From Streptomyces sp. MZ04 (GTDB lineage Bacteria > Actinomycetota > Actinomycetes > Streptomycetales > Streptomycetaceae), in assembly GCF_004684775.1 (NCBI RefSeq), contig NZ_SRIC01000010.1, forward strand, positions 1-64,000: a stretch of DNA of 64,000 nt. The letters run 5' to 3'. Below the pieces are notes generated by a model, which worked only from the letters and a program-made list of their open reading frames with translations, was not told the origin of the DNA and ran no database searches. Each line of letters starts with the position of its first letter. Positions within the stretch are counted from its first letter, which is position 1. Below are positions 41,045 through 58,652 of this stretch, piece by piece. The translations under genes and the position numbers were made by a program.

Positions 41045-42142
41045 CTATAACAGGGGGTCACTGGATACCGTTTTGACCAGGTTGAATACCTCGCGGGCGG
41101 CATATCGCTTGAGGCACCTGATGATCTCACGACGAGTCTTGCCCTCCCGGGTGCGGCGTTCGTAGTACGCCTGCGTGCGCGGGTCGTGGCGCAGCCTAGT
41201 GAACACGATGCGGTGCAGGGCGGCGTTCGCCTTCCGGTCGCCGCCCTGGTTGAGCCGGCGCGAGCTCCGGCGGCCCGAGGAGTACTCGACGGGGCTGGCT
41301 CCGCACAGGGCGGCAAACGATGCCTCGGTGTGCACGCGCTCGGGATTGTCCCCCATGGTGATCAGGAGCGTCACGGCACTGTCCGGACCGATACCCACCG
41401 GCGCGAGCAGCTGCGGGGCGTGACCTTCGATGAGCCGGGTCAGGCGCTGATTGAGGTCATAGATCTGCCCGGTGAGGTGTTCAACGCGCTGGGCCAGCAT
41501 GCTCAAGCTGATCCGGGTGGCCTGGGCCACGCCGTCCCCGTCATCCCCCTGATCCAGGCTCAGACGGGCGCAGGTGCGGAACAGCTCCCCGTTGCCCAGG
41601 CTGGACAGCCGTTCCCGCAGGGCCGGGTCGGCTATGACCAGGACGGCCTTGAGCTGGTTGATCGTCTGGGTGCGGGCCCTGACCGCGGAGTCCTTGGCAA
41701 TCTTGAAGAGCCGGGCACTTTGTACCGGACCGTCGCCGGTCTTGGCGCGAGCCCTGGCGCGCCCGCTGAGCACGGCCCGCGCGGCGGCCTGCGCGTCGAG
41801 CGGGTCCGACTTCCCCAGCAGACAGCGAGCCGTACGGTCGGGCCGGTTCACCTCGAACACCGCGACATTCTGCGCCAGCAGGTAGCGCGACAGGCCCGCT
41901 CCGAAAGTACCGGTGCCCTCCACGCCAGCCCGGCGCACCGTGCCCAACTTGCGGGCCCAGGCGAGGAGCCGACAGTAGCGGACCGCTGTGGCCGGAAAGG
42001 ACTTGGTGCCCAGGATCTGGCCCAGTGGGCAGACCAGCGCGGCGACATGGTCCTCGCCGTGCGTGTCCACCCCCAGGACGACCTCGCCCCGAGCGGGCGG
42101 ATCCGTACTGGTGGACAAGGTGCTGCGCTGTCTGGTCGTCAT
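41045..42142 (-). CDS. IS110-family transposase
   Basis: A 365-residue DEDD transposase/recombinase. The N-terminal RuvC-like domain shows VVLGVDTHGEDHVAALV, the acidic residue in GVEGTGTFGAGL and the KSDPLDAQAAARA motif. The C-terminal Tnp_2 domain shows PVGIGPDSAVTLLITMGDNP, the ALCGASPVEYSSG stretch with its Ser, and NQGGDRKANAALHRI. The ATG at 42142 is chosen because the protein family starts there; the open frame runs on to 42874 without homology. No frameshift or internal stop, so it may be active. It is transcribed toward pcaL. Confidence 0.93.
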   Translation of the reverse strand: MTTRQRSTLSTSTDPPARGEVVLGVDTHGEDHVAALVCPLGQILGTKSFPATAVRYCRLLAWARKLGTVRRAGVEGTGTFGAGLSRYLLAQNVAVFEVNRPDRTARCLLGKSDPLDAQAAARAVLSGRARARAKTGDGPVQSARLFKIAKDSAVRARTQTINQLKAVLVIADPALRERLSSLGNGELFRTCARLSLDQGDDGDGVAQATRISLSMLAQRVEHLTGQIYDLNQRLTRLIEGHAPQLLAPVGIGPDSAVTLLITMGDNPERVHTEASFAALCGASPVEYSSGRRSSRRLNQGGDRKANAALHRIVFTRLRHDPRTQAYYERRTREGKTRREIIRCLKRYAAREVFNLVKTVSSDPLL

Positions 42143-42343
42143 GATGGTCCGCCTCCCGCGTCGTGATTGCTGGGTGGCTGGCACCGGCCTGGCCGGGTGG
42201 TCTGAACCGTGATAGCGCCGACTGGACGGCAAGGCTCCTATTGGGACACACCCTGTGGCTCGGTGACAGCAGGCACCATCCCGCAACGGCAGCCGACACG
42301 CCTGTGACAAGACACTTCGGTCAAAGATGTCATGAGTCAGACC
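42143..42343 (-). ncRNA. Candidate bridge RNA region of the IS110 element
   Basis: In IS110-group elements the non-coding end upstream of the transposase encodes a structured bridge RNA that pairs with donor and target DNA. This 200-base stretch is non-coding on the minus strand and occupies that position. Its 33-base outer end is conserved in a second copy elsewhere in the window. The RNA boundaries and its guide loops were not resolved. Confidence 0.5.
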
Positions 42344-42466
42344 CCCGTCCGGAACGGTGCTACGCAACCGTCCTACTGCCCCCCAGTGCGACCACATGCC
42401 CCGACCACTCCCGGGAGACTTCGTCCGAACCGGCAGTGAACTTGCTCTGGACGGGACAACGATGAG

Positions 42467-43080
42467 TTGGCTCCTCGTCCACCCCTGATCAGCATTGACG
42501 GACAACCCAGTGGCCCGCCCTACGAGGCCGTCGGCCTCACCAAATCGACCACGTACCGCTTGGTGCGCGTTTTGCAGGAGGAGCCGTATCTGACGCACAA
42601 CGACTCCGACGATTACGTCATCGGCCGCAGCCTGATGGGGCTCGCGGCGGCATGATCCCGCACGCCGACCTCTACGCATCCGCCCGTCCGGTACTGCGAG
42701 TACTGGCCGACCTGTCCCGGGAGAGCGCAACCCTGCACGTGCGGGCCGACGACGAGGCGGTTCTCGTACTCGGAGCGGAAAGCGACTACGAACTACGACG
42801 AGCCGCTCACCTCGGCTCGTCGACCGCGCTGCGCCGGGGAGTCGGCGGTCAAGACATCCTGGCCCCTCTGCCACCGGACGAAGCCACAGCCATACTGTCC
42901 CGTACAGGTCAGTCGAGCAGCGCGGAAGAGGTGCCTGCCGCCCTCGCGGCCATCCGGAACCAAGGGTTCTCTCTGTCCGCCGGAGCCGCCCACCCCGGCC
43001 TGCGAGGCATCGCGGTGCCGGTCCTGACTGCAGAAGGCCATCCCGTGGCGTCCGTGGCCGACAACGGAGCTGAGCTAACC
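42467..43080 (+). pseudogene. Frameshifted, truncated IclR-family regulator
   Basis: Two adjacent frames together encode most of an IclR regulator. The first (from TTG 42467) ends the DNA-binding part (GLTKSTTYRLVRVLQEE...YVIGRSLMGLAAA). It stops at 42655, and the second frame, starting at the overlapping ATG 42652, continues the effector domain seamlessly (LYASARPVLRVLADLSRESA, HPGLRGIAVPVLTAEGHPVASVA). After about 43080 homology is lost. The first helices of the winged helix are also poorly preserved. The gene lies divergent to pcaL, from which it is separated by the IS110 element, so it may once have regulated it. Confidence 0.7.
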
Positions 43081-43443
43081 AGCCGTAGCCAGCGGCGAGC
43101 CTGCCCCGGGCAGCCTCATCCCCGGCTCTGGCGGCGCGCGAAGCACCTGGCGGGGCGAATCGGGACGTCGTTCTTCAGCAAGGCCAGGCGCACGGTGACC
43201 AGGCTCGATCCGACGAAGCCGCATGCGACGCGATCAAGTGGCCCTCCTTGGATCAGTCCTCGCCACGCAAGAGAACACCCTCGACCCACACGTGCACCGA
43301 TTCACTCGCAAGCTGATGAGCCTGCTGCCCCGACACAGAGACACGCGATGATGCCATCCGGCCACCAGGAGAAGACGTAGGTGCCGGGTGCCGCAAATCC
43401 CCGTCCAGCCCCGGCCGGTATCAGACGCGCAGGCGACGATCAC

Positions 43444-43473: not shown

Positions 43474-43653
43474 GCGAAAGCCCGGGACGCCGCCCCGCCT
43501 CTCGGCGGCGCAGCGAGAAACCTGCGGGCCTTCTCAGGCTCGGAATCCCGCCGCGCCGCGCACGTCAACTCACCGGAGCCCGCACGGAGTTTCTGGGAGG
43601 CAAATACACACCACACCTGACGCATTGTCCGACTCGGCGGATAATCTCATCGG

Positions 43654-43722
43654 GCGCGCTCGTCTCCGCCGCCGCGGAATTCCAAGGTGCCCGGCAGTCC
43701 GCGGCGGCGGAGACGAGCGCGC
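43654..43722. repeat. Perfect 25-bp inverted repeat upstream of the CoiA-like gene
   Basis: Arms 43654-43678 and 43698-43722 are exact reverse complements, separated by 19 bases. The structure ends 137 bases before the GTG of the CoiA-like gene. It is longer and more perfect than the usual terminators in this window. It could be a terminator shielding the gene, a protein-binding cruciform, or the end structure of a small mobile element. Confidence 0.85.
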
Positions 43723-43859
43723 TCAGGCCCAAGGCGTCGCTGCACCGTCGGCACGTGTGTGACTGCGCGGGCGCCAGGGGTGCTCCGGGCGCGGTGTCCG
43801 CGCCGGGTGTGTGCCTCCTTGGGTGGATGGGTGCCTAACTGGTTTCGGAGGAACTGCTG

Positions 43860-46800
43860 GTGGCGCAGATCGACTTCCGTCTCGTCCAGAGCGCGGTTAT
43901 GGGAGGCCGGGATTCGGACCAGCCGGTCATCCTGCCCGAGGAGCCGCACAATCTGGATGAGTTCCGCCGCCAGTTCGGCAAGGACGCCTTCTGGTGCGGG
44001 ACGCTGCTCGGTGGCTGCGGCGAGCGGCTGATGACCAAGCGCTACGAAACGAAGGTCTGTCACTTCTCCCATTTCCCGGACCGCGACGGAAGCCGGGCGG
44101 CTTGTCATCGCACGGCCAACGGCGTCGACAGCGCCGATCACCTGTTCATCAAGGCGCACGTGACGCAGTGGCTGGCAGGCCAGGGGCACGCGGCACAGGC
44201 CGAGTTGCGCAGCCTCGGGCACGGCCCCGGGGATGCCGTGGACTTCGTGCTGCGTGCCACGAATCAACGCCTGCGCTTCGAGCTGCGGCCCACCGACTAC
44301 CGCAGCTGGCGTGGAACGGCAGACAGCCTGGCCGCCAAGGAAGGGCACGTCGAGTGGGTCTTCGGGCTGGAGAGCGCCATCACCCGGGATATGACGGCCC
44401 GCTACGACTATGCCCTGCGGGTGCGGTGCGAGACCGACGGCAACAGCCGCCGGGTTCTGATCGGCACCGTCACCGAAAACCGCCCCGTCGCCTGGTCCCC
44501 GCTCGAGCAGTGCCGGATGACCGGCGACGGCCTCATCACCCCCGACCTCGACGAACTGCGCAGTCGCGGGCTGCTCCGCGAGGGCGCCGCGCGCCACGAC
44601 GCCGTGGCCAGCAGCCTGCCGCTGCGCGGCACCGAGATCGTCTTCGCAATCGACGGCGAGGCCCAGCCCGACACCGACTCGCCTCTCGTGGAGGGCAGCC
44701 GGTACCTGATATCCGGCTTCATCAAGCCGGCCGGACACCGGATCCTCAAGGCCCAGCTCTCCTTGCCCCACGACACCCCCCGCCCCACCGAGCAGTACGT
44801 GTACCGGCTGGCGGGCGCGGTGCGCCTGCTGGTCACCGAAGCCGACCGGCCGGGCGAGAGCACCCGCTGGGCGGTGCGCGCGGACAGCCTCATCCAGCTC
44901 AAGGGCCTGGACGCGGAACGCACCGGCCTGTGGCGTCCCCCCGTCGCCCTGGACGAGCCCCTGCCCGCCATGCGGCCCGCCCCTGCCCCCACCGTTCCGG
45001 TGCAGTCCCAGGGCAGTCGCACCGCGACTGTGTTGCGGCGGGCCCTCGAAGGCGTGGCGCGGGAGGGAGCCACCACCACGTGGAAACAGCTGGCCGAGCG
45101 GGTCGGCCTGGATCTCGCGCACCTGCCCGATCCCAAACGCCGGGACTTCCTCGTGGAGGTCGACAAGCCGCGGGCCCGGAACCGGTCGCTGTTGTGCGTC
45201 CTGGTCCGCGCGCCCTCCGGCCGTCCCCTGTCCTATCTCGCCACGGTGCTGCGCCTGCTCCAAGTCGCCGCCCCGGCCTCAGAGTCCGCGCTGAACCGGT
45301 GGAGCGAGGAGCAGATCCGCGCGGCACATACGGCGTACGGCCACCGCGCTCCTCCCGTACCGGCATCGGCTGCCGTTGCGGTGGCCCCCCGGCCCGCGGA
45401 GGCGAAGGCCGCGCAGCAACAACTGACCCTTCTCAAATCCCAGTTGGCCGTGGGTCGCGCCACGTTACCCCGCGCCACCGGCCGGCGCGCCGCCCGCCTG
45501 GCCACCACGGTCAAGGACGGCGAGCAGCATCAGCGGCTCTACGAGAGTGTCCGGCAACGCAGGCAGGAGCTGCGCGCGTGGCAACGCGAGAGCGAGCGAC
45601 TCCTGGGCGACCTCGATCGCCTCATCGGCCACCCTCTGCCGGCGTCTGCTCCCGCGAAGAAGAGCACGCCCGTCGTCCCGCCCGCCGCGAAGAGCCCCGT
45701 CTCGCCGGGAAAGGACCAGCACACGTTCCAGGCGCAGGCGGCAGCGGACATCGCCCGTCTGACGCAGCTGTTCAAGCAGGCCCGTGATACCGACGACCTG
45801 AACGAGGCCAGACGGATCCGCCAGGAGGTCTCACGGATCGCCACGGATCGCCTGTCCGGCGAGCCACGGCAGAACCTCCTACTGCTCCGCACTGACCTGC
45901 AGACCTGGATCATCAGCCGTGAAGCGGCAGCCGCCCACGCGGCGCTGCGCACCTTGTTCACGGACCTCGCGACGGCCTGCCCCGCCCCCACGCCTCTCGT
46001 CCTGCGCAGCGCCCTGGCCCACGCGAAGATTCTCAAACGACGCTGCCCCGGTCCCCTGCCGCAGGATCTCCACACGGGGCTCGCCCGCCTGGAAGCCCAG
46101 GTCAACGGCGAATCGGTGACTCCAGACGACGGATCCACCCCACCGGCGACCCACCCGTCACCCAGGGGTGCTCCGCCCTCCGATCTGGCCGCCTTCGCAG
46201 AAGCCGGGGCGGAGTTCGCCTGGCTCATGAAGGAGATCCGTGCCGCGCAGGAGGCCGGCGACCTGGCTGCGGTCCAGACCGCACGCCACTTGGCCGGACC
46301 CATCTACGGCCGACGTCTGTCGCCCGAAGACCGTGCCACCTACACCCCGTTGATGCGCGAGGTGAAGGCGTGGTGCCAGGAACAGGATCCGAACACGGAC
46401 CCGATCCTGCGCCGTATCCGTCAAATCCTCGCCGAACTCGGCCGCGCCGGCAACAACCTGGCCACCGAGCAACTCGCCGCGTTCCTCTACGAGATCGGCT
46501 CGCTGCGCCGTCAGTTGGACCGGCGCCTGCCGGTGCTCGAAGAGGTTCAGGTCAAGCGGTGGAAGCGCCAGCTCAAGGCCCGCACATCGAGCGCGCCTCA
46601 TCATGCCGCACCGTACGCGGCGGACCCGGTCAAGCCTGTCCCCGGCCCCAAGGCCACCACACCGTCTCCCCCGGACCGTCTGCCGATCGAGACCATCGAC
46701 AAACTGGCCTCCATCGCCCGGGACGTCCTCAAGGACGCGGCGCGCAGCGGCGGCTCACTTCTGACGTGGGGTGACCTGCGGCTGCGGATGGCGGGCGGGC

Positions 46801-47033
46801 TGCCGCACGTGCACCCGGACGACCAAGGTGAACTCCTGGTCGCCGTCGACCGGGAGACACCGGTCGGTGAACCGCTGCTGTCCACACTCGTCGCGAGCGC
46901 GGACGCCTCGCTGCACTGGCTCTACCGCCACGTCTGCTTCAGCCTCGGCCGCGAACGCATACCCGAACCAGACCTTCCCGCCCACTGGGCCACCGAAGTC
47001 CTGCGCCTGCGCCAAACCTGGCGCCACCGCTGA
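43860..47033 (+). CDS. Large CoiA-like nuclease-domain protein with duplicated C-terminal module
   Basis: A 1057-residue protein. Residues 1-150 resemble the competence protein CoiA: a Cys/His cluster (C46, C53, C67-H68, H71, C81), the helix SADHLFIKAHV, then Asp128 (GDAVDF) and Glu141 (RFELRP), a pattern like a PD-(D/E)xK nuclease core. A beta-rich part follows to about 380. A module near 388-468 (TTWKQLAERVG, RRDFLVEVDKP, LLCVLV) is repeated near 944-1036 (LTWGDLRLRMAG, QGELLVAVDRE, LLSTLV). Between them lie long charged helices. The GTG has a GGAGG site 8 bases upstream. The gene stands alone and intact among pseudogenes and IS110 pieces. Function unknown; DNA processing or anti-phage defence is inferred from the nuclease-like domain and setting. 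Confidence 0.75.
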   Translation: MAQIDFRLVQSAVMGGRDSDQPVILPEEPHNLDEFRRQFGKDAFWCGTLLGGCGERLMTKRYETKVCHFSHFPDRDGSRAACHRTANGVDSADHLFIKAHVTQWLAGQGHAAQAELRSLGHGPGDAVDFVLRATNQRLRFELRPTDYRSWRGTADSLAAKEGHVEWVFGLESAITRDMTARYDYALRVRCETDGNSRRVLIGTVTENRPVAWSPLEQCRMTGDGLITPDLDELRSRGLLREGAARHDAVASSLPLRGTEIVFAIDGEAQPDTDSPLVEGSRYLISGFIKPAGHRILKAQLSLPHDTPRPTEQYVYRLAGAVRLLVTEADRPGESTRWAVRADSLIQLKGLDAERTGLWRPPVALDEPLPAMRPAPAPTVPVQSQGSRTATVLRRALEGVAREGATTTWKQLAERVGLDLAHLPDPKRRDFLVEVDKPRARNRSLLCVLVRAPSGRPLSYLATVLRLLQVAAPASESALNRWSEEQIRAAHTAYGHRAPPVPASAAVAVAPRPAEAKAAQQQLTLLKSQLAVGRATLPRATGRRAARLATTVKDGEQHQRLYESVRQRRQELRAWQRESERLLGDLDRLIGHPLPASAPAKKSTPVVPPAAKSPVSPGKDQHTFQAQAAADIARLTQLFKQARDTDDLNEARRIRQEVSRIATDRLSGEPRQNLLLLRTDLQTWIISREAAAAHAALRTLFTDLATACPAPTPLVLRSALAHAKILKRRCPGPLPQDLHTGLARLEAQVNGESVTPDDGSTPPATHPSPRGAPPSDLAAFAEAGAEFAWLMKEIRAAQEAGDLAAVQTARHLAGPIYGRRLSPEDRATYTPLMREVKAWCQEQDPNTDPILRRIRQILAELGRAGNNLATEQLAAFLYEIGSLRRQLDRRLPVLEEVQVKRWKRQLKARTSSAPHHAAPYAADPVKPVPGPKATTPSPPDRLPIETIDKLASIARDVLKDAARSGGSLLTWGDLRLRMAGGLPHVHPDDQGELLVAVDRETPVGEPLLSTLVASADASLHWLYRHVCFSLGRERIPEPDLPAHWATEVLRLRQTWRHR

Positions 47034-47144
47034 CCCGCCGCACTGAGCGAACTGCGTCCGGGCCCAGCCGGCCCGCCGTTCGGAACGGTCGCGGACACCC
47101 GCCGACCTCGGCTCGCTGCACTGGTCCGCCACGACTGCACGCGG

Positions 47145-47330
47145 CTACGGGTAGACGCCGAGCTCATAGCGGGATACCCCGGCGTACACGGTCACGGTGC
47201 CGTCGTCGCGCATCTCGCCCCATGGACGCTCCGGGAGTGAGGTGTCCAGGAAGCTGCCGGAGTAGCCCTCGCAGCAGTCGAGATGGTCCTGCCGCGCTGC
47301 CACGTCCGCTTCGGTGCGGGGGTTGCGCAT
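47145..47330 (-). CDS. Small acidic protein or gene fragment with Cys-rich upstream frame
   Basis: 61 residues from ATG 47330 (MRNPRTEADVAARQDHLDC), ending in a beta-like segment (GTVTVYAGVSRYELGVYP). The same frame is open upstream to about 47451 and reads a Cys/His-rich stretch (CDRFCPCGTADCGHG, then DECSGHDIHT) like a small zinc-binding domain, but it has no start codon before the stop. The complete gene has therefore probably lost its 5' end near the IS110 remnant. No function recognised. Confidence 0.45.
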   Translation of the reverse strand: MRNPRTEADVAARQDHLDCCEGYSGSFLDTSLPERPWGEMRDDGTVTVYAGVSRYELGVYP

Positions 47331-47639
47331 CGTATGGATGTCGTGACCGCTGCACTCGTCGTTCGGGCGCGGTTCGCCGTGGCCACAGTCCGCGGTGCCG
47401 CACGGGCAGAAACGGTCACACCCCGGCTGGTTCCCGGTCCTGGGTGATCACGGCGCGTTATCGGGGTCGTCGACGGCAAGCGCGATCCCCGTCGTGGAGA
47501 GCGCCGCAGCGGTATGTCCGTTCCCCTTCAGGGGCCCCGACTGCGCGTCGCGTTGCCAGTGCCGGACCGCGTCAAGCGCCCAGAATCGTGAGGACGCCAC
47601 AGCAATCGGCCCCCCCTACCGGGACGCACCCCCGCCGCC

Positions 47640-51668: not shown

Positions 51669-54600
51669 TCAGGGGCGACTGGCGTGCCGGGCCTGCGGGT
51701 TGGTGAGGGCGTGGCGCGGGTCGGTGGCTCGGGTGATGGCGGTCTCGACCGAGGCGACGCGGTCGGCGAGGAGGCCGAGGGCGGCCACGGCGCGGGCCAG
51801 GGGGGCGTCGTCGGGGCCGCCGAGTGTCCGGGCGCGGACGTGGGCGGCCTTGATGCCGTCCCAGCGGTCGGCCTGTTCCGGGGTGAGCGTGCCCCGCAGC
51901 TCGGCCAGCTTGAGCAGGTTGGCCTCGGCGCCGGTGGTGAGGGTCTGGGCCTCGCCCGTGTAGTGGTCGTCGATCACGGCAGCGAGTTCGGCGTCGTTCA
52001 TGACGGGGTCGATGCGGGCGGCGATCTTGTTCATGTTGCGGTAGGAGCCCTGGAGTCGGAAGGGCGGTTCGGTGCGGGTGCCCTCGGACTGGCCCGCGGA
52101 TGCGATGTAGGCGGCGTTGACCGCGAGGACCGACGCGCGTGCAGTGAGCAGGTGTTTGAGCACGGCGACGACACGCTCCACTTCGGCGGGGGCGTAGGGG
52201 TACGTGAGACCGTCGGCGCGTGCGGTGGGGTCGTGCTCCGCGAGGCGGATCAGGAGGTCCAGATCGGCACGGTCACGCCCGGCGAGCGGGGCGAGAACCG
52301 GGTTCGCCGTGAGGGCGTTCTCGACGAAGCTGACGGCGAAGGCGTCCTCCTTGCCCGTGAGGACGTCGCCGAGGTTCCAGATGTCGGCGCGGTTGGCGAG
52401 CATGTCGGGGATGCGGAAGCGGGCGCCGGACTCGGTGTAGGGGTTGCCCGCCATGCAGACCGCGAAGCGTTTGCCGCGCAGGTAGTACGTGCGTGAAGTG
52501 CCGTTCCAGACGCCTTCCATGCGGCGCTGGGCATCGCACAGGGAGATGAACTTCTGCAGGAGTTCGGGCGAGGTGTGCTGGATGTCGTCCAGGTAGAGGA
52601 GGACGTTGTTGCCCGCCTCCAGTGCGAAGTTGACCTTCTCGATCTCCTGGCGGGCCGTGGCGTTCGGGGCCTCGGCGGGGTCGAGCGAGGTGACACCGTG
52701 ACCGAGCGCCGGGCCGTTGACCTTCACCAGGACCATGCCGAGGCGGTCGGCGACGTATTCCATGAGGCTCGTCTTGCCGTAGCCGGGCGGGGAGATGAGC
52801 AGCAGCAGGCCGCCCGCCGTGCCGAGCTGCTTGCCGAGGCTGTCGCCGATGAGCGGCAGGTACACCTCGTCGATGAGGCGGTTTCGGACGAAGGCGGACA
52901 TGACTTTGGGCCGGTACTCGTCCAGCCGCAGGCGGGTTCGTTCGGCAGCGACGAGCTCGGTGCGCCGGGCCTGGTAGGCGCGGAAGCCGGGGAGGGTTTC
53001 GGCACGGAAGTCGTGGGTGCGGGCGAGGAGTTCGTCGATGCGGACCGTGAGGCGGCGCCCTTTGATGCGCGGGTGGGCGCCGAGGAGTCCGTCGACGGTT
53101 TCGGCGAGGGGGGCCTCGCGGTCGTAGCGCCGCAGGTCGGGGCAGAGTTCGACGGCGATCGCCTCGGCGAGGTCGTCGGCGCCCTCCCCGGAGGCGGTCG
53201 CGTACGAGGACAGCCACGCCTCGACCAGCTGCCGCCGTGCGCCGAGGCCGCAGATGCCCGCCAGGTCATCCTCGTACGCCGGACCGTCCACGGCGCGGCG
53301 GAACTTGTCCAGGAAGGTGCGGGTGCGCGTCGTGGTGACGAAACCCGCCGGCCCGGTGGTGAGCTCCTCGAAGAGGTAGGCGGCGGCCGGTCCGCCGATC
53401 CGCTCGGCGAGTTCCGCGCACAGGTTGTCGATGGCGGGCGCGAGGCCGAAGGTGTCACGGGCTCGGGCCAGCGACACCGCGCGCCGCTGCCAGAGGTCAC
53501 GCTCCTCCGGCTCCGTTCCGTGCGCCCAGAACAGTTGGGCCGCCGCGCGCGCCTCGGGGGTGTGCCGCAGGAGTCCCGCGCCGTCGTGGAGGCGCAGCAG
53601 GGCTCCGAGGATGAGGGTCGCGTCGTGGTCGTGGACGCCGCGCTCATACCCTTCGTCGTACGAGGCTTCCGCCGCCGCGCGTACGAGGCGCGGCAGGTCA
53701 CCGGAGTCCAGGAGCGCCTCGGGGCCGTGTTCGGAGAGGAGGCGGGCGGCGAGGTGTTCGGCGCGGTAGACCTCGGCGGTCTCCGACGGCAGGACCTGGT
53801 CCCAGTAGGGACGCAGTGCGGCGAAGGACGGGTCGGTGACGGGCGAGCGGTAGTCGGTGCCGGTGAGCGCGAAGGCCATGCCGTCGCCGTCCGTGGCCGG
53901 GACGAGGGTGAGGTCGAGGGGCTGGGTGTTGACCGCGAAGCGGTGGCGGCCCAGGCGGATGGTGTCGCCGCCGTCCCCGTACAGCTCGGTGCGGTCGCGC
54001 AGGGCGCGAGTGGCCTCCTGCCGGGCGGCCCTCAGACGCCCTTCCAGTTCCTCGGCCCGCACCTGGTCGTCGAGTTCACGCAGTTCGTCGATGGTGCGAC
54101 GCACCTTGCCGACCATCGGGTCGGAGGCGAAGTAGGTGCTGATCTCGTCCGTGGAGGCGAGCGTGGCCAGGCGGCGCGCGACCGTCTCCAGGACGCGGGT
54201 GGCCGAGACGGCGAGGCGCTCGGCGTGCCGGGCGCGGGAGTCGGCGAGCGTCTGCCTGCGGGAGGCGAACGCGTCGTACACCTCGCCCCGCTTGGCGTCG
54301 AGCTCGGCCAGGAACTCGTCCGACCCGGCGAACCGCCCTTCCAGGCCCTCCAGTTGGAGGAGGAGGCGGGCGAGTTGGTCGTCGCAGGTCTCGGGGGTCG
54401 TGGCTGCGGCGAGGGCGCCGGTGACCGCCTGGCCGAGCAGGGAGAACTCGGCGGCGAACTCGGCTCGTCCCTCGTGCGCGGTCAGTTCGCGGCGCCGGGC
54501 GTCCAGCGTGGCACGGGCCCGGTTGACGCCCGCGAGGACCGCCGCGACGCGCTCCAGGATGCCGGTGCGGACGGTGGCGTCGCCGATGTCGAGGCCGGCG

Positions 54601-56504
54601 ACGACCTCGGTGACGGTCTGGAGCTGCTCGGTCAGTTCCTGGAGCCGGTCCGCGAGGGGGGCCGCCTCGGCGACCGTGGTGAGTGCGTCGGCGTCGGCGG
54701 TCAGCTGCTCGATGTCGGCGTGGTGGGCGGCGAAGGCGTCGGGGCGTTCCAGGAAGGCGACGGCCCGCTGCCCGGCCGACGCGATGTCGGCCGCCAGGTC
54801 GCCGGCCAGCGAGTCGATGCGCTCCCCGTCGGCGTACCGCATGTCCTTCAGAGTCAGCAGATGCCCCTGTGCGCGCCGTAGTTCCGTGATCCGCTCCACC
54901 CATTCGGGCGCGTTCCGCGGGGCCTCCCCGCGGATGCGGCGAACGAGCGCGGCAATGCGTGCGGCCGAGTCGGTGAGCGCGTCCGTGGCCTGCCGGGTCA
55001 GGGCCAGCACGGTGGCGAACTCCGCGACCACCTGCTCGGCCGTCTCGCGCACGGCGTCCAGCGGCTCCCCCAGGTCCCCCGCTTCGTGGTCGCCGAGCCA
55101 GTGGGAGGAGTCGGCGGCCCGTACGCAGGCCGCGGCGAGCGCCTCGTACACCTCGGAGGTGGGTGTGGTCTCGGTGACGGACCGGGCGATGGAGAGGCAG
55201 TCGGAGATGCCCCGTACGAGGTCCGCGTTGCCGATGCGCGCCAGCGGACCCTCCCCCGCCGGGCGGGCGGCGGCATAGGTGTCGGAGACGTAGGGGGACT
55301 GCCACAGCTGCAGCGGGTGGACGCGTGCGGGTTCCGTTGAGTCGGCGCGCAGCGCGGCCAACAGGCCGTCGTCGAAGAGCGCGTACCCGTGGCAGGACAG
55401 GGGGGTGGCGACCTCCTTTCGGATCATGTTGTACGGCAGGAGCAGCGTGCGTCCCTCCGCGCGCGCGTGGAACGCGAAAAGGACGTCCTCACCGTTGGGA
55501 GAGCGCACCGCGCGCTCGAACTCCAGGCCGCGGGTGTCCAGGGCGTCGAAGGTCTTGTACGTGCCCGTGGCCAGGCAGTAGCCGCCGGGGAAGACGATGC
55601 CCTGGTCCTCGGGCAGGCGGCGGCATGCCTGCCCGATGCCGTCCAGGCGTATGACGTGCCGGGTGAGAGTGTTGAAGACGAGGTGGCGCCAGGCGTCCTC
55701 CTTGTAGGGGCGCACGCGCAGCAGGATCAGCGCGCCCACGCGCGCGTGGAACACGTCCGCGTCGGCGAGGGACTGCAGCGGTTCCTCGACCGGCTCCTCG
55801 TAGACCCCCTCCCCCGCCTCGGTGTCGTTCTCGACCTTGAGGGTCAGGGTGCCGCCGACCGTCCCGACGAAGATCTCGCCGCCGATGGAGATGTGCGGGT
55901 GACGGCCCAGGACGTGGTCTTCGCGGGTTGCCTCGGTCCAGTCGAAGTCGTGCGAGGGCGGGAAGACGTGATCGCGCTCGCCGCGGGCGTCCAGGAACTC
56001 GGCCCGCCCGTCGGCCGAGAGTCCCCAGCGAAGGACCCGGATGTCCTCGGCCTTCTCACCGGTCCTGAAGACGGCGAGGATCTTGCCGTCGATGTGCCGG
56101 AGCTGGAGGAGCCGTGCGTCACGGTAGTAGCGGAAGAGCGCGGCGAATTCGCGGACGAAGTCCGGGCCGTCCAGAAGTCCGGGCACCGCGTCCTCGGGCA
56201 GGCGATTCAGGTCGCGGTCGTGGAGGGCCAGGACGTCACCGATGGCGGTCTCGGACTTCTGGCCAACGTGGACGTGGTAGCCGAAGAGCAGGATGTCGCC
56301 GACGGCGATGACGTCGCGCGGTACACACGGCTGCTCGGTGCGGATGCTTTCGGTACCGGTGAGGGTGAGCTTGGTCGAGCCGAAAACAGCCACGCGCCGG
56401 TCGTTGAGGGCGGTGGCGCGATCGGCCAGCTGCCTGGCCTGCACCGCCAGACGGTCGCGCAGCACCTCGTACGTTCCCGCGTCCAGACCGGTCCCGCTCT
56501 CCAT
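51669..56504 (-). CDS. Giant MoxR-like AAA ATPase ('DNA repair ATPase' type) of a flotillin operon
   Basis: About 1611 residues. The N-terminal ~500 are beta-rich (GDILLFGYHVHVG, GGEIFVGTVGG). A long central helical part follows with coiled-coil character (GLDIGDATVRTGILERVAAV, REVYDAF-like stretches). The AAA domain near residues 1250-1450 carries Walker A (SPPGYGKTSLMEY), Walker B (NVLLYLDDIQH) and sensor-like GNPYTESGARFRIPDM, close to MoxR/dynein-type ATPases. The ATG at 56504 has a GAAGGGAAG site upstream. The order NfeD-like, flotillin, ATPase with short gaps says the ATPase works with the flotillin at the membrane. Databases name such proteins DNA repair ATPases; experimental support is not known to me. 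Confidence 0.8.
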   Translation of the reverse strand: MESGTGLDAGTYEVLRDRLAVQARQLADRATALNDRRVAVFGSTKLTLTGTESIRTEQPCVPRDVIAVGDILLFGYHVHVGQKSETAIGDVLALHDRDLNRLPEDAVPGLLDGPDFVREFAALFRYYRDARLLQLRHIDGKILAVFRTGEKAEDIRVLRWGLSADGRAEFLDARGERDHVFPPSHDFDWTEATREDHVLGRHPHISIGGEIFVGTVGGTLTLKVENDTEAGEGVYEEPVEEPLQSLADADVFHARVGALILLRVRPYKEDAWRHLVFNTLTRHVIRLDGIGQACRRLPEDQGIVFPGGYCLATGTYKTFDALDTRGLEFERAVRSPNGEDVLFAFHARAEGRTLLLPYNMIRKEVATPLSCHGYALFDDGLLAALRADSTEPARVHPLQLWQSPYVSDTYAAARPAGEGPLARIGNADLVRGISDCLSIARSVTETTPTSEVYEALAAACVRAADSSHWLGDHEAGDLGEPLDAVRETAEQVVAEFATVLALTRQATDALTDSAARIAALVRRIRGEAPRNAPEWVERITELRRAQGHLLTLKDMRYADGERIDSLAGDLAADIASAGQRAVAFLERPDAFAAHHADIEQLTADADALTTVAEAAPLADRLQELTEQLQTVTEVVAGLDIGDATVRTGILERVAAVLAGVNRARATLDARRRELTAHEGRAEFAAEFSLLGQAVTGALAAATTPETCDDQLARLLLQLEGLEGRFAGSDEFLAELDAKRGEVYDAFASRRQTLADSRARHAERLAVSATRVLETVARRLATLASTDEISTYFASDPMVGKVRRTIDELRELDDQVRAEELEGRLRAARQEATRALRDRTELYGDGGDTIRLGRHRFAVNTQPLDLTLVPATDGDGMAFALTGTDYRSPVTDPSFAALRPYWDQVLPSETAEVYRAEHLAARLLSEHGPEALLDSGDLPRLVRAAAEASYDEGYERGVHDHDATLILGALLRLHDGAGLLRHTPEARAAAQLFWAHGTEPEERDLWQRRAVSLARARDTFGLAPAIDNLCAELAERIGGPAAAYLFEELTTGPAGFVTTTRTRTFLDKFRRAVDGPAYEDDLAGICGLGARRQLVEAWLSSYATASGEGADDLAEAIAVELCPDLRRYDREAPLAETVDGLLGAHPRIKGRRLTVRIDELLARTHDFRAETLPGFRAYQARRTELVAAERTRLRLDEYRPKVMSAFVRNRLIDEVYLPLIGDSLGKQLGTAGGLLLLISPPGYGKTSLMEYVADRLGMVLVKVNGPALGHGVTSLDPAEAPNATARQEIEKVNFALEAGNNVLLYLDDIQHTSPELLQKFISLCDAQRRMEGVWNGTSRTYYLRGKRFAVCMAGNPYTESGARFRIPDMLANRADIWNLGDVLTGKEDAFAVSFVENALTANPVLAPLAGRDRADLDLLIRLAEHDPTARADGLTYPYAPAEVERVVAVLKHLLTARASVLAVNAAYIASAGQSEGTRTEPPFRLQGSYRNMNKIAARIDPVMNDAELAAVIDDHYTGEAQTLTTGAEANLLKLAELRGTLTPEQADRWDGIKAAHVRARTLGGPDDAPLARAVAALGLLADRVASVETAITRATDPRHALTNPQARHASRP

Positions 56505-56575
56505 GTCCGGCTTCCCTTCACGTGTGTCTGTGCGTGCGATGCCGTCCGGCACTCACGTGCGGGACGGATGAGGAG

Positions 56576-56622: not shown

Positions 56623-56656
56623 GCTCTTGAGAGAGCAGCTCAGCTCTTGAGAGAGC
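56623..56656. repeat. 20-bp tandem duplication at the 3' end of the flotillin gene
   Basis: GCTCTTGAGAGAGC occurs at 56623-56636 and 56643-56656. On the minus strand this duplicates the last codons of flotillin (SLKS then stop) beyond the stop. Confidence 0.85.
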
Positions 56657-58652
56657 CGTTCAGTTCGGCGATCGGCATGTCGGCAAGACCCAACTGGCCT
56701 GCCTTGTCGAGCAGTTCACGCAGCTGCCCGGCCTGCGCGCCGCCGCCCTTCATGAGCTTCATCAGGAGCGCGGAGACAGTGAGGTTCTGTACGTCGGACG
56801 TGGACACGGAGCCCAGCAGCCGGGACAGGTCGTCGGTGAAGCTCGCGGTGCCGTCCAGCCACGGCCCCGCAAGGGCCTGCGCCGTCTCGGAGTTCTGCAT
56901 GAATCCGTCGACGCTCTTGCCGAGCGAGATCGACGACATCAGGCGGTCGAAGAAGACGGACTCGCCGCCGACGATGCTGATGTCCGCGTTCTCCAGGCCG
57001 GTGGCCAGGACCGTGGCCTGCGCCTCGGCGACCTGCCGCTGCACTTCGATGCCCGCCAGGCGGATGTCCTTCTCCGCCTCCAGGCGCAGCCGGTACTCCT
57101 CGTGGGTGCGGGACGCCTCGTCCAGCGCCGCCATCGCCGCGGCCTTCTCGGTCAGCCCCGCGGCCTCGGCCTTCAACTTGGCCTCCACGCCCTCGGCCTC
57201 CGCGCGCATCCGGGCCTCGGTCGCCTCGGCCTCCGCACGGCCCGCCTTCTCGATGGCGCCGGCCTCCTTCTCGCGGACCTGCACGGCCGCGAGTCCCTGC
57301 GCGGCACACTCGGCCTGCACGCCCTCGGCGATCCGCAGCTTGGCCTGCGCGTCCAGATCGGAAGCCTTCAGCCGGGCCTCGGCCAAGGTGATCTCCTCGG
57401 CGGCGCGGTGCGTGGCCGCCTGCTCGGCGGCCTCCGCCGCCTTGATGCTCTTGACCAGGCCCTCCTGCGCCTCCGCCTCGGCGGCGATGATCACGGCCTG
57501 GCGCCCGCGCTCGGCCTCCTCCACGGCCCGCAGCTTCTTGATGGACTCCTCCTGCTCGGCGACCGTGCGGTCCACGGCCACCCGCTCGCGGACGACCTCG
57601 GCGATCTCCCGCTTCTCCGCCTCGACCTCTTTCTCCGCGGCGATACGCGTCAGCTCCGTCTCCCGTTCCCGGGCGATGACTTCGAGCAGGCGGTCCTTCT
57701 CGATGCGCTCGTTCTCGATGGCGATGACCCGCTCGCGGTTCTTCTGCGCCACGGCGACCTCACGGGCCTGGTTCTCCCGCTGCACGCCGAGCTTCTCCTC
57801 GGTGAGGAGGAAGGCGCCTTGCGACCGCAGCCGCTCCTCTTCCACCACCCGTGCCGTCTCGGCCTCCTCACGGGCCCGTACGGTGTCGACCTCGCGCTTC
57901 TGCTTGATCTCGGCGTCCGCCTGGCGCCGCTCCAGTTCGAGGATGGCCTCGCGGGCGTCGACGTTCTGCCGGGTGATCTCCTTCTCCTCGTGCCGCGTGT
58001 ACTCATTGGTGCGTACGTGCTCCACGGCCGTCAGCTCGGTGATCTTCCGGATGCCCTGTGCGTCCAGGATGTTGGACGGGTCCAGCTGGTTCAGCGGCGT
58101 CTGCTCCAGATAGTCGATCGCCGCGTCCTCCAGGCTGTAGCCGTTCAGATCGGTGCCGATGACCTGGATGATGCGGTCGCGCAGTTCGTCACGCTTGGTG
58201 TAGAGATCGGCGAAGTCCATCTGCTTGCCGACCGTCTTCAGGGCTTCGGAGAACTTCGCGTTGAACAGCTCCTGCAACGTGTTCTGATCACTCGCCCGCG
58301 CCGTGCCGATGGCCTGCGCGACCCGAATCACGTCCTCCGTCGTCTTGTTGACGCGTACGAAGAACGAGATCCGGATGTCCGCGCGGATGTTGTCCCGGCA
58401 GATCAGACCGTCCCGACCGGTCCGCATGATGTCGATGGTCTTCACCGAGATGTCCATCACCTCGGCCTTGTGCAGCACGGGCAGCACAACCTGCCCGGTG
58501 AAGGTCACATCGACCTTCCGCATCTTGGAGACGATCAGCGCCTTGCCCTGCTCCACCTTCCGGAACAGTCGGGTGACCGTGAACAACAACGCGACGACGA
58601 TGATCAGGACAGCGGCGACGGACACGCCGATGCCCAGAGTGATGGCATCCAT
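56640..58652 (-). CDS. Flotillin-family (SPFH/band 7) membrane protein, YqiK-like
   Basis: A 670-residue flotillin. One N-terminal membrane segment (LGIGVSVAAVLIIVVALLFT) is followed by the SPFH/band 7 domain (EQGKALIVSKMRKVDVTFTG, RADIRISFFVRVNKTTEDVI). A very long charged coiled coil with many Glu-Ala repeats (residues about 225-560) comes next, then a C-terminal globular tail. Flotillins assemble into membrane microdomains. The start is an ATG. The gene lies between the NfeD-like and ATPase genes, the classic NfeD-flotillin pairing seen in YuaF/YuaG and YqiJ/YqiK. Confidence 0.92.
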   Translation of the reverse strand: MDAITLGIGVSVAAVLIIVVALLFTVTRLFRKVEQGKALIVSKMRKVDVTFTGQVVLPVLHKAEVMDISVKTIDIMRTGRDGLICRDNIRADIRISFFVRVNKTTEDVIRVAQAIGTARASDQNTLQELFNAKFSEALKTVGKQMDFADLYTKRDELRDRIIQVIGTDLNGYSLEDAAIDYLEQTPLNQLDPSNILDAQGIRKITELTAVEHVRTNEYTRHEEKEITRQNVDAREAILELERRQADAEIKQKREVDTVRAREEAETARVVEEERLRSQGAFLLTEEKLGVQRENQAREVAVAQKNRERVIAIENERIEKDRLLEVIARERETELTRIAAEKEVEAEKREIAEVVRERVAVDRTVAEQEESIKKLRAVEEAERGRQAVIIAAEAEAQEGLVKSIKAAEAAEQAATHRAAEEITLAEARLKASDLDAQAKLRIAEGVQAECAAQGLAAVQVREKEAGAIEKAGRAEAEATEARMRAEAEGVEAKLKAEAAGLTEKAAAMAALDEASRTHEEYRLRLEAEKDIRLAGIEVQRQVAEAQATVLATGLENADISIVGGESVFFDRLMSSISLGKSVDGFMQNSETAQALAGPWLDGTASFTDDLSRLLGSVSTSDVQNLTVSALLMKLMKGGGAQAGQLRELLDKAGQLGLADMPIAELNGSLKS

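Follow-up and report, generated by a model that had tools for sequence, protein, structure and literature searches.

The window analysed here is a stretch of 64,000 nucleotides (nt) of the Streptomyces sp. MZ04 genome (contig NZ_SRIC01000010.1, positions 1 to 64,000). Its 43860–47033 gene is an intact open reading frame (ORF) of 1057 codons, whose product joins a CoiA-like N-terminal domain to a variable middle and a C-terminal module present in two copies. The gene belongs to a family whose members differ in their C-terminal parts, it lies in a mobile block common to several Streptomyces genomes, and in this copy the partner gene of the block has been lost. It starts with GTG and has GGAGG 8 nt upstream, so that the long intact gene with a good ribosome site described in the first-pass annotation of this DNA is borne out; the GC content by codon position is 0.74/0.52/0.86, high in the third position. 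But what kind of protein does it encode? No family in Pfam, NCBIfam or PADLOC is matched by the protein at E ≤ 1, and the only PHROG match has an E-value of 0.044. A literature search whose scope took in a minority of subscription journals returned, among the matches listed, no paper on this family. The features of the locus are collected in Table 1.

Table 1. Features of the gene, its mobile block and the adjoining DNA (window coordinates)
Feature	Position	Strand
IS110-type transposase ORF with both Pfam domains, adjoining the block	41045..42874	-
Window part of the mobile block common to five other genomes; left edge 43548–43572 depending on the genome compared	43569..47467	
Promoter-like CTGACG-17-GATAAT, within DNA that aligns across all six copies	43617..43645	+
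Hairpin, 69 bp, 30-nt arms, 93% complementary, 8 nt after the -10-like hexamer	43654..43722	
Intact gene (1057 amino acids): CoiA-like N-terminal domain, variable middle, two C-terminal module copies	43860..47033	+
N-terminal domain, residues 1–230: zinc-type set of C46/C53/H68/H71/C82, SADHL-x-x-K motif and a CoiA_nuc-like region whose active site is not conserved	43860..44549	+
Module copy 1, residues 388–488	45021..45323	+
Variable middle region, residues 491–945, evolves fastest (median dN/dS 0.40), looks helical by eye	45330..46694	+
Module copy 2, residues 948–1050	46701..47009	+
Tail of the lost partner gene; 47148–47432 matches residues 615–709 of P0007	47148..47467	-

The repeated module had been placed near residues 388–468 and 944–1036 from the sequence alone. 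Direct BLASTP of one copy against the other gives no signal. A profile was therefore built from 13 module copies at protein ends, leaving out the window protein and its closest relatives at loci L001–L005 (together the window clade) and including the next relative, L053. It scores 55.9 bits at residues 390–487 and 91.1 bits at residues 950–1050 of the window protein, compared with 6.9 bits for the best of 300 shuffles of the protein. The internal repeat is real but remote, and lies where it had been proposed. AlphaFold models the module at a mean predicted local distance difference test (pLDDT) score of 54.3, too low to use, from an alignment of 12 rows of close copies; Foldseek finds no match to this model at E ≤ 0.001, and a profile search of PDB sequences with the module gives nothing significant. 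Among 26 genomes searched for the module, five match, the window's own strongly and four others weakly; two of the four weak frames (G003 and G011) are read as decayed. A weak match of the module to a methylase at L055 (3e-9) was dropped, being absent with the profile built without the window clade.

What stands behind the N-terminal domain is not constant in the family. The members that were opened carry no module, one, two or, at L117, three. Others end in zinc ribbons: L016 matches Phage_zn_bind_8, and CxxC patterns are present in L048 and L051. At L116 the C-terminal half matches poly(A) polymerases and CCA-adding enzymes of the PDB (best 3wfo, E 6.2e-26), in the place taken in the window protein by the repeated module. 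This gene (L116:8411-10690, G221:C1) thus fuses the CoiA-like N-terminal domain to an enzyme of the CCA-adding/poly(A)-polymerase type; a close gene in another genome, at L061, has a frame that stops early. The module also occurs by itself, in stand-alone one-module genes of about 122 amino acids (aa) at L060:13154-13558 (minus strand) and L061:10801-11166, both loci that also hold family genes.

How is the N-terminal domain related to CoiA? Like CoiA (Pfam CoiA_N, PF25164, and CoiA_nuc, PF06054), it has a Cys/His cluster, followed by a helix resembling S-x-x-H-x3-K and then by a strand pair resembling D-x12-E. At E ≤ 1, 14 of 24 N-terminal domains match CoiA_N, the best at 2.6e-5; the window protein itself scores 12.5 bits, under the cut-off of 26.3. 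None of the 24 members matches CoiA_nuc at this threshold, and a Pfam search of the window's own genome gives no CoiA_nuc match either. For comparison, ten CoiA_nuc-type proteins were assembled from three CoiA_nuc matches and their tblastn relatives, the latter from five Streptomyces plasmids, one Kitasatospora plasmid and one Gordonia phage. Profile against profile, the N-terminal domain aligns colinearly with this set at a score of 24.7; the highest of 59 column shuffles is 17.1, and reversing the alignment yields 16.0. The HHalign probability is only 2%, and its register sets E141 on the CoiA glutamine and not on the glutamate, which makes the residue correspondence uncertain. The CoiA-like N-terminus of the first-pass annotation is therefore kept as a relationship that is supported but weak.

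The same annotation read the Cys/His cluster and the D(x12)E pattern as the core of a PD-(D/E)xK nuclease, that is, of a working CoiA-type enzyme for DNA uptake or recombination. In its favour, beyond the CoiA_N matches and the colinear similarity to CoiA_nuc proteins, D128 and E141 are both present in the window clade and in L053, and the aspartate and glutamate are spaced by 12 or 13 residues in the CoiA_nuc proteins L018, L064 and L065. CoiA-like proteins are listed among the members of the PD-(D/E)XK superfamily (PMC1913061), and the model of residues 1–369 has a low-confidence helix-strand-strand-strand order, with D128 and E141 in strands, that would suit this fold. The model as a whole has a mean pLDDT of 32.7, too low to use (its alignment has six rows, all close copies), and a profile search of PDB sequences with the N-terminal domain finds nothing significant. 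Are the proposed catalytic residues conserved? We scored residue conservation in 28 family members, the six of the window clade included. All 28 have C46, H68, H71, C82, D93 and H94; C53 is found in 27, and 25 have D or E at the position of D128. Position 141, however, is E in only seven (the window clade and L053) and H, Q, R, L or Y in the other 21, and residue 143 is K in a single member, so that the conserved D...ExQ/K active site of CoiA is lacking, as is any match to CoiA_nuc. The D128-x12-E141 letters are there; their meaning as a catalytic pair, and with it nuclease activity, gains no support from conservation. The long C-terminal extensions are a further difference from CoiA, and no competence gene was noticed nearby, though no search aimed at competence genes was made. 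A working nuclease is thus quite unlikely. The N-terminal domain is better described as CoiA-related without the conserved nuclease site, and judging from its residues the CoiA-like front domain is probably not an active nuclease.

With a profile of the N-terminal domain, relatives turn up in 23 of the 101 genomes sampled from the window's genus (its own included, fragments counted). Of 148 genomes sampled across the class, 6 have a match, and five of these belong to the same genus. The family is patchy and mobile, and not fixed at one core locus in all Streptomyces. The window's own genome has a second intact member of 594 aa with one module (G000:C45:8083-9927) and a broken fragment of a third (G000:C183:9979-10392), and at L054 (G081:C1:6750500-6770000) two different family genes, with frames of 804 and 536 aa, lie within 7 kb on the same strand. 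The family is also common on plasmids: 99 PLSDB records match, 94 of them from Streptomyces, in no record does a single match region cover 80% of the query, and the five records that were opened are all linear. Phage records gave no match to the window protein, and short-pattern scans of viral contigs, two of them in IMG/VR, found no relative, whether aimed at the whole protein, at the N-terminal domain or at a CoiA. Could the protein serve (linear) Streptomyces plasmids in maintenance or transfer, helping to replicate, protect or move their DNA, with the chromosomal copies as relics of integrated plasmids? The plasmid records and the empty phage and viral searches speak for it. Linearity is weak evidence, as large Streptomyces plasmids are mostly linear anyway. 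In a tree of N-terminal domains, a clade with support 0.96 unites the window clade, whose nearest relative is L053, with 11 further loci; none of these comes from the five opened plasmid records, at least five lie on contigs longer than 8 Mb, and some adjoin defence operons. Members outside this clade are both plasmid and chromosomal. Replication and transfer genes are not recurrent neighbours of the family, nor is there any conserved neighbour gene among the loci examined. We regard the plasmid role as possible, though on the unlikely side.

The mobility of the gene is best seen in its closest relatives. A pattern scan of genome contigs gave 30 matches, among them the five loci L001–L005, all in Streptomyces, full-length and 80–92% identical. 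What these loci have in common with the window is a block, and not its outer flanks, save for 237 bp within the IS110 ORF and a 103-bp segment in L005; pairs of the non-window loci have short further flank overlaps. In L001, L002, L004 and L005 the shared stretch is 5.6–5.7 kb long, ends near L001:15514 and includes a convergent second gene, P0007 (L001:13297-15426, minus strand, 709 aa). Only the end of this partner is kept in the window and, in another way, in L003. From an IGHNLFD-like motif, judged by eye, P0007 looks like a DEDD-type exonuclease. It matches in 17 of the 101 genomes of the genus sample, always as fragments or the C-terminal part, and is thus no general partner of the family. 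Neither the two-gene block, nor the swapping of C-terminal parts, nor the loss of the partner in the window copy figured in the first-pass annotation.

When did the block move? Between the window and L001, L002, L003 and L005 the synonymous divergence (dS) of the CoiA-like gene is 0.10–0.13, about a quarter of that of the flotillin gene (window 56640-58652) in the same four genomes (0.40–0.54), which indicates that the block moved recently. Flotillin is a single core gene, with no usable match in the L004 genome; the yardstick is thin, the gap wide, and by this measure the block is recently transferred. In L004 the CoiA-like gene has a dS of 0.40, although its partner gene is only 0.09–0.13 away from the partner genes of the other loci, so that the block is a mosaic. 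Looked at by eye, the alignments show neither terminal repeats nor target duplications where the block begins and ends, so that transposition of the block by itself gains no support.

The window copy shows signs of decay around it. Of the four broken genes and two IS110 ends noted in the first-pass annotation, we recover one IS110-type ORF, an ORF (42652-43380) in which the C-terminal domain is all there is of an IclR regulator, and the partner tail; no search for a second IS110 end was made. The hairpin between the promoter-like site and the gene is predicted to fold as RNA at -68 kcal/mol (z -8.3) and has a single copy in the window's own genome. L001, L002, L003 and L005 have nothing at this site; L004 has a different sequence there (L004:9807-9839), with its own perfect 13-nt inverted repeat (-41 kcal/mol, z -3.5). 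That two of the six copies have dissimilar hairpins at this position may be a coincidence, or hairpins may be favoured there. Lacking its partner and adjoined by an IS110 element, the window copy may be weakly expressed. The gene could be a stranded passenger of a decayed mobile block, without present function, as the truncated partner, the adjoining IS110 and the hairpin so close behind the -10-like hexamer would suggest. Its substitutions speak against this. Relative to L001, L002, L003 and L005, and with three multiply changed codons set aside, the window lineage has 55 unique changes; 27 of these are nonsynonymous, compared with 71% expected (P=0.0007), and no stop has arisen where 2.8 would be expected under neutrality. 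Median pairwise ratios of nonsynonymous to synonymous divergence (dN/dS) are 0.33 for the whole gene, 0.19 for residues 1–235, 0.40 for residues 491–945, and 0.20 and 0.28 for the two modules, the second ranging from 0.09 to 1.85 because few changes are available. By lineage, rough omega values are 0.40 for the window, 0.27 for L001, 0.46 for L003, 0.50 for L005 and 0.93 for L002. For the window lineage these figures support the view, already put forward for this gene, that it is under selection, still of the purifying kind, and make a functionless passenger unlikely.

Some relatives lie beside defence genes. At L056 the family gene follows JetD by about 510 bp on the same strand, behind JetA3, JetC3 and JetD3 of a Wadjet III system, in which a 271-aa gene in the JetB place matched no model. 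At L058 it is preceded by a helicase (best model DpdE, with DrmD models lower), a DrmMI-type methylase and a 367-aa gene, the last of which ends about 32 bp before it. L053 has a DrmB match upstream, with three genes between, that covers part of a DrmB-like protein only. Wadjet type III or DISARM-like operons thus adjoin the family gene, on the same strand, in these three relatives; the family is no named component of either system, and most of the 24 loci scanned have no such neighbour. Next to the L055 gene are a kinase, a helicase related to that of L058 and what looks by eye like a methylase. BLASTP finds a relative of this methylase next to the gene at L116, the fifth locus of the 11-locus clade with defence-type neighbours. 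The helicase, kinase and by-eye N6-methylase of L055 stand in a row (L055:1438-7399, minus strand; the methylase relative is at L116:6135-8111), possibly an undescribed methylation-linked defence operon.

Taken together, we propose that the window protein represents a horizontally moving family of DNA-binding accessories in conflicts between mobile elements, phages and the host, a reading to which we give a probability of about 0.35. The N-terminal domain would recognise DNA, perhaps DNA ends or single-stranded DNA, which a fold of nuclease origin could do, and the C-terminal part would decide what happens at the DNA so bound. In the two-gene block the convergent partner P0007, exonuclease-like by eye, would have supplied catalysis. 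In some relatives the gene would serve, or travel with, Wadjet, DISARM-like or methylase defence operons. With its partner lost and a strong hairpin between the promoter-like site and the gene, the protein kept in the window may act alone or weakly. The existence of the family, its modular build, its mobility, the selection on it and the loss of the partner are established by the results above, while the DNA binding, the adaptor role and the cooperation with the partner or with defence operons are what we infer. A related reading, in which the CoiA-like domain has lost catalysis and serves as a nucleic-acid recognition adaptor for exchangeable C-terminal effectors (tandem modules, zinc ribbons or a CCA/poly(A)-polymerase-type enzyme) and, in one clade, as an unrecognised accessory of Wadjet and DISARM-like systems, seems to us rather doubtful.

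How strong is the defence link on which part of this proposal leans? PADLOC models were scanned over the called genes flanking 24 loci, at most three on either side (127 proteins in all), the window-clade loci standing outside the scan, and over 116 control proteins from 20 regions of the same genomes, 85–106 kb away or nearer on short contigs. JetD escaped the gene caller, and DrmB lay beyond the three-gene limit. At 1e-15 the neighbours match 109 models (25 of the 109 listed) and the controls 3. By locus, 4 of 24 (L053, L055, L056 and L058) have defence neighbours compared with none of the 20 controls (P=0.08); within one clade, chosen post hoc, the figure is 4 of 11 (P=0.01). Several points weigh against our proposal. 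The model counts overstate the link because PADLOC models are redundant and kinases (three members) match many of them. The count of none among 20 controls sets aside, by judgement, matches to mad2 (two), mad3 (two) and GlgB (one); mad2 and mad3 are defence-named models, and counting them makes the difference vanish. The case loci were inspected one by one and the controls were not. Around the window gene itself, a Pfam scan of ten ORFs recognised no defence family, and at E ≤ 1 the protein matches none of the PADLOC models. P0007 has no Pfam, NCBIfam or PDB match, the L002 lineage gives no sign of purifying selection (20 nonsynonymous and 9 synonymous changes), and the pLDDT values given above mean that both the folds and the DNA binding are deduced indirectly. 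A common preference for chromosome arms could also explain part of the link, as Wadjet is enriched towards the chromosome ends of Streptomyces (PMC10482375). The defence function suggested in the first-pass annotation therefore survives as a suggestive association, weak against its controls, that runs through the neighbours of some relatives only.

The family has no Pfam, NCBIfam or PADLOC model matching the window protein, yet it occurs in about a quarter of the sampled genomes of the genus and on many plasmids. If the adaptor reading is right, a dead nuclease with swappable effectors, sometimes ending defence operons, would be a new modular part of bacterial conflict systems and a new defence-associated family of Streptomyces, and would account for several large 'hypothetical proteins' together. 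Should the plasmid role prove correct instead, it would still be a common uncharacterised function of Streptomyces mobile elements. Further along the window, 4.6 kb from the gene, 51669-56552 encodes a 1627-aa DUF3686/DUF7902/AAA protein, described in Pfam as 'ATPase involved in DNA repair'.

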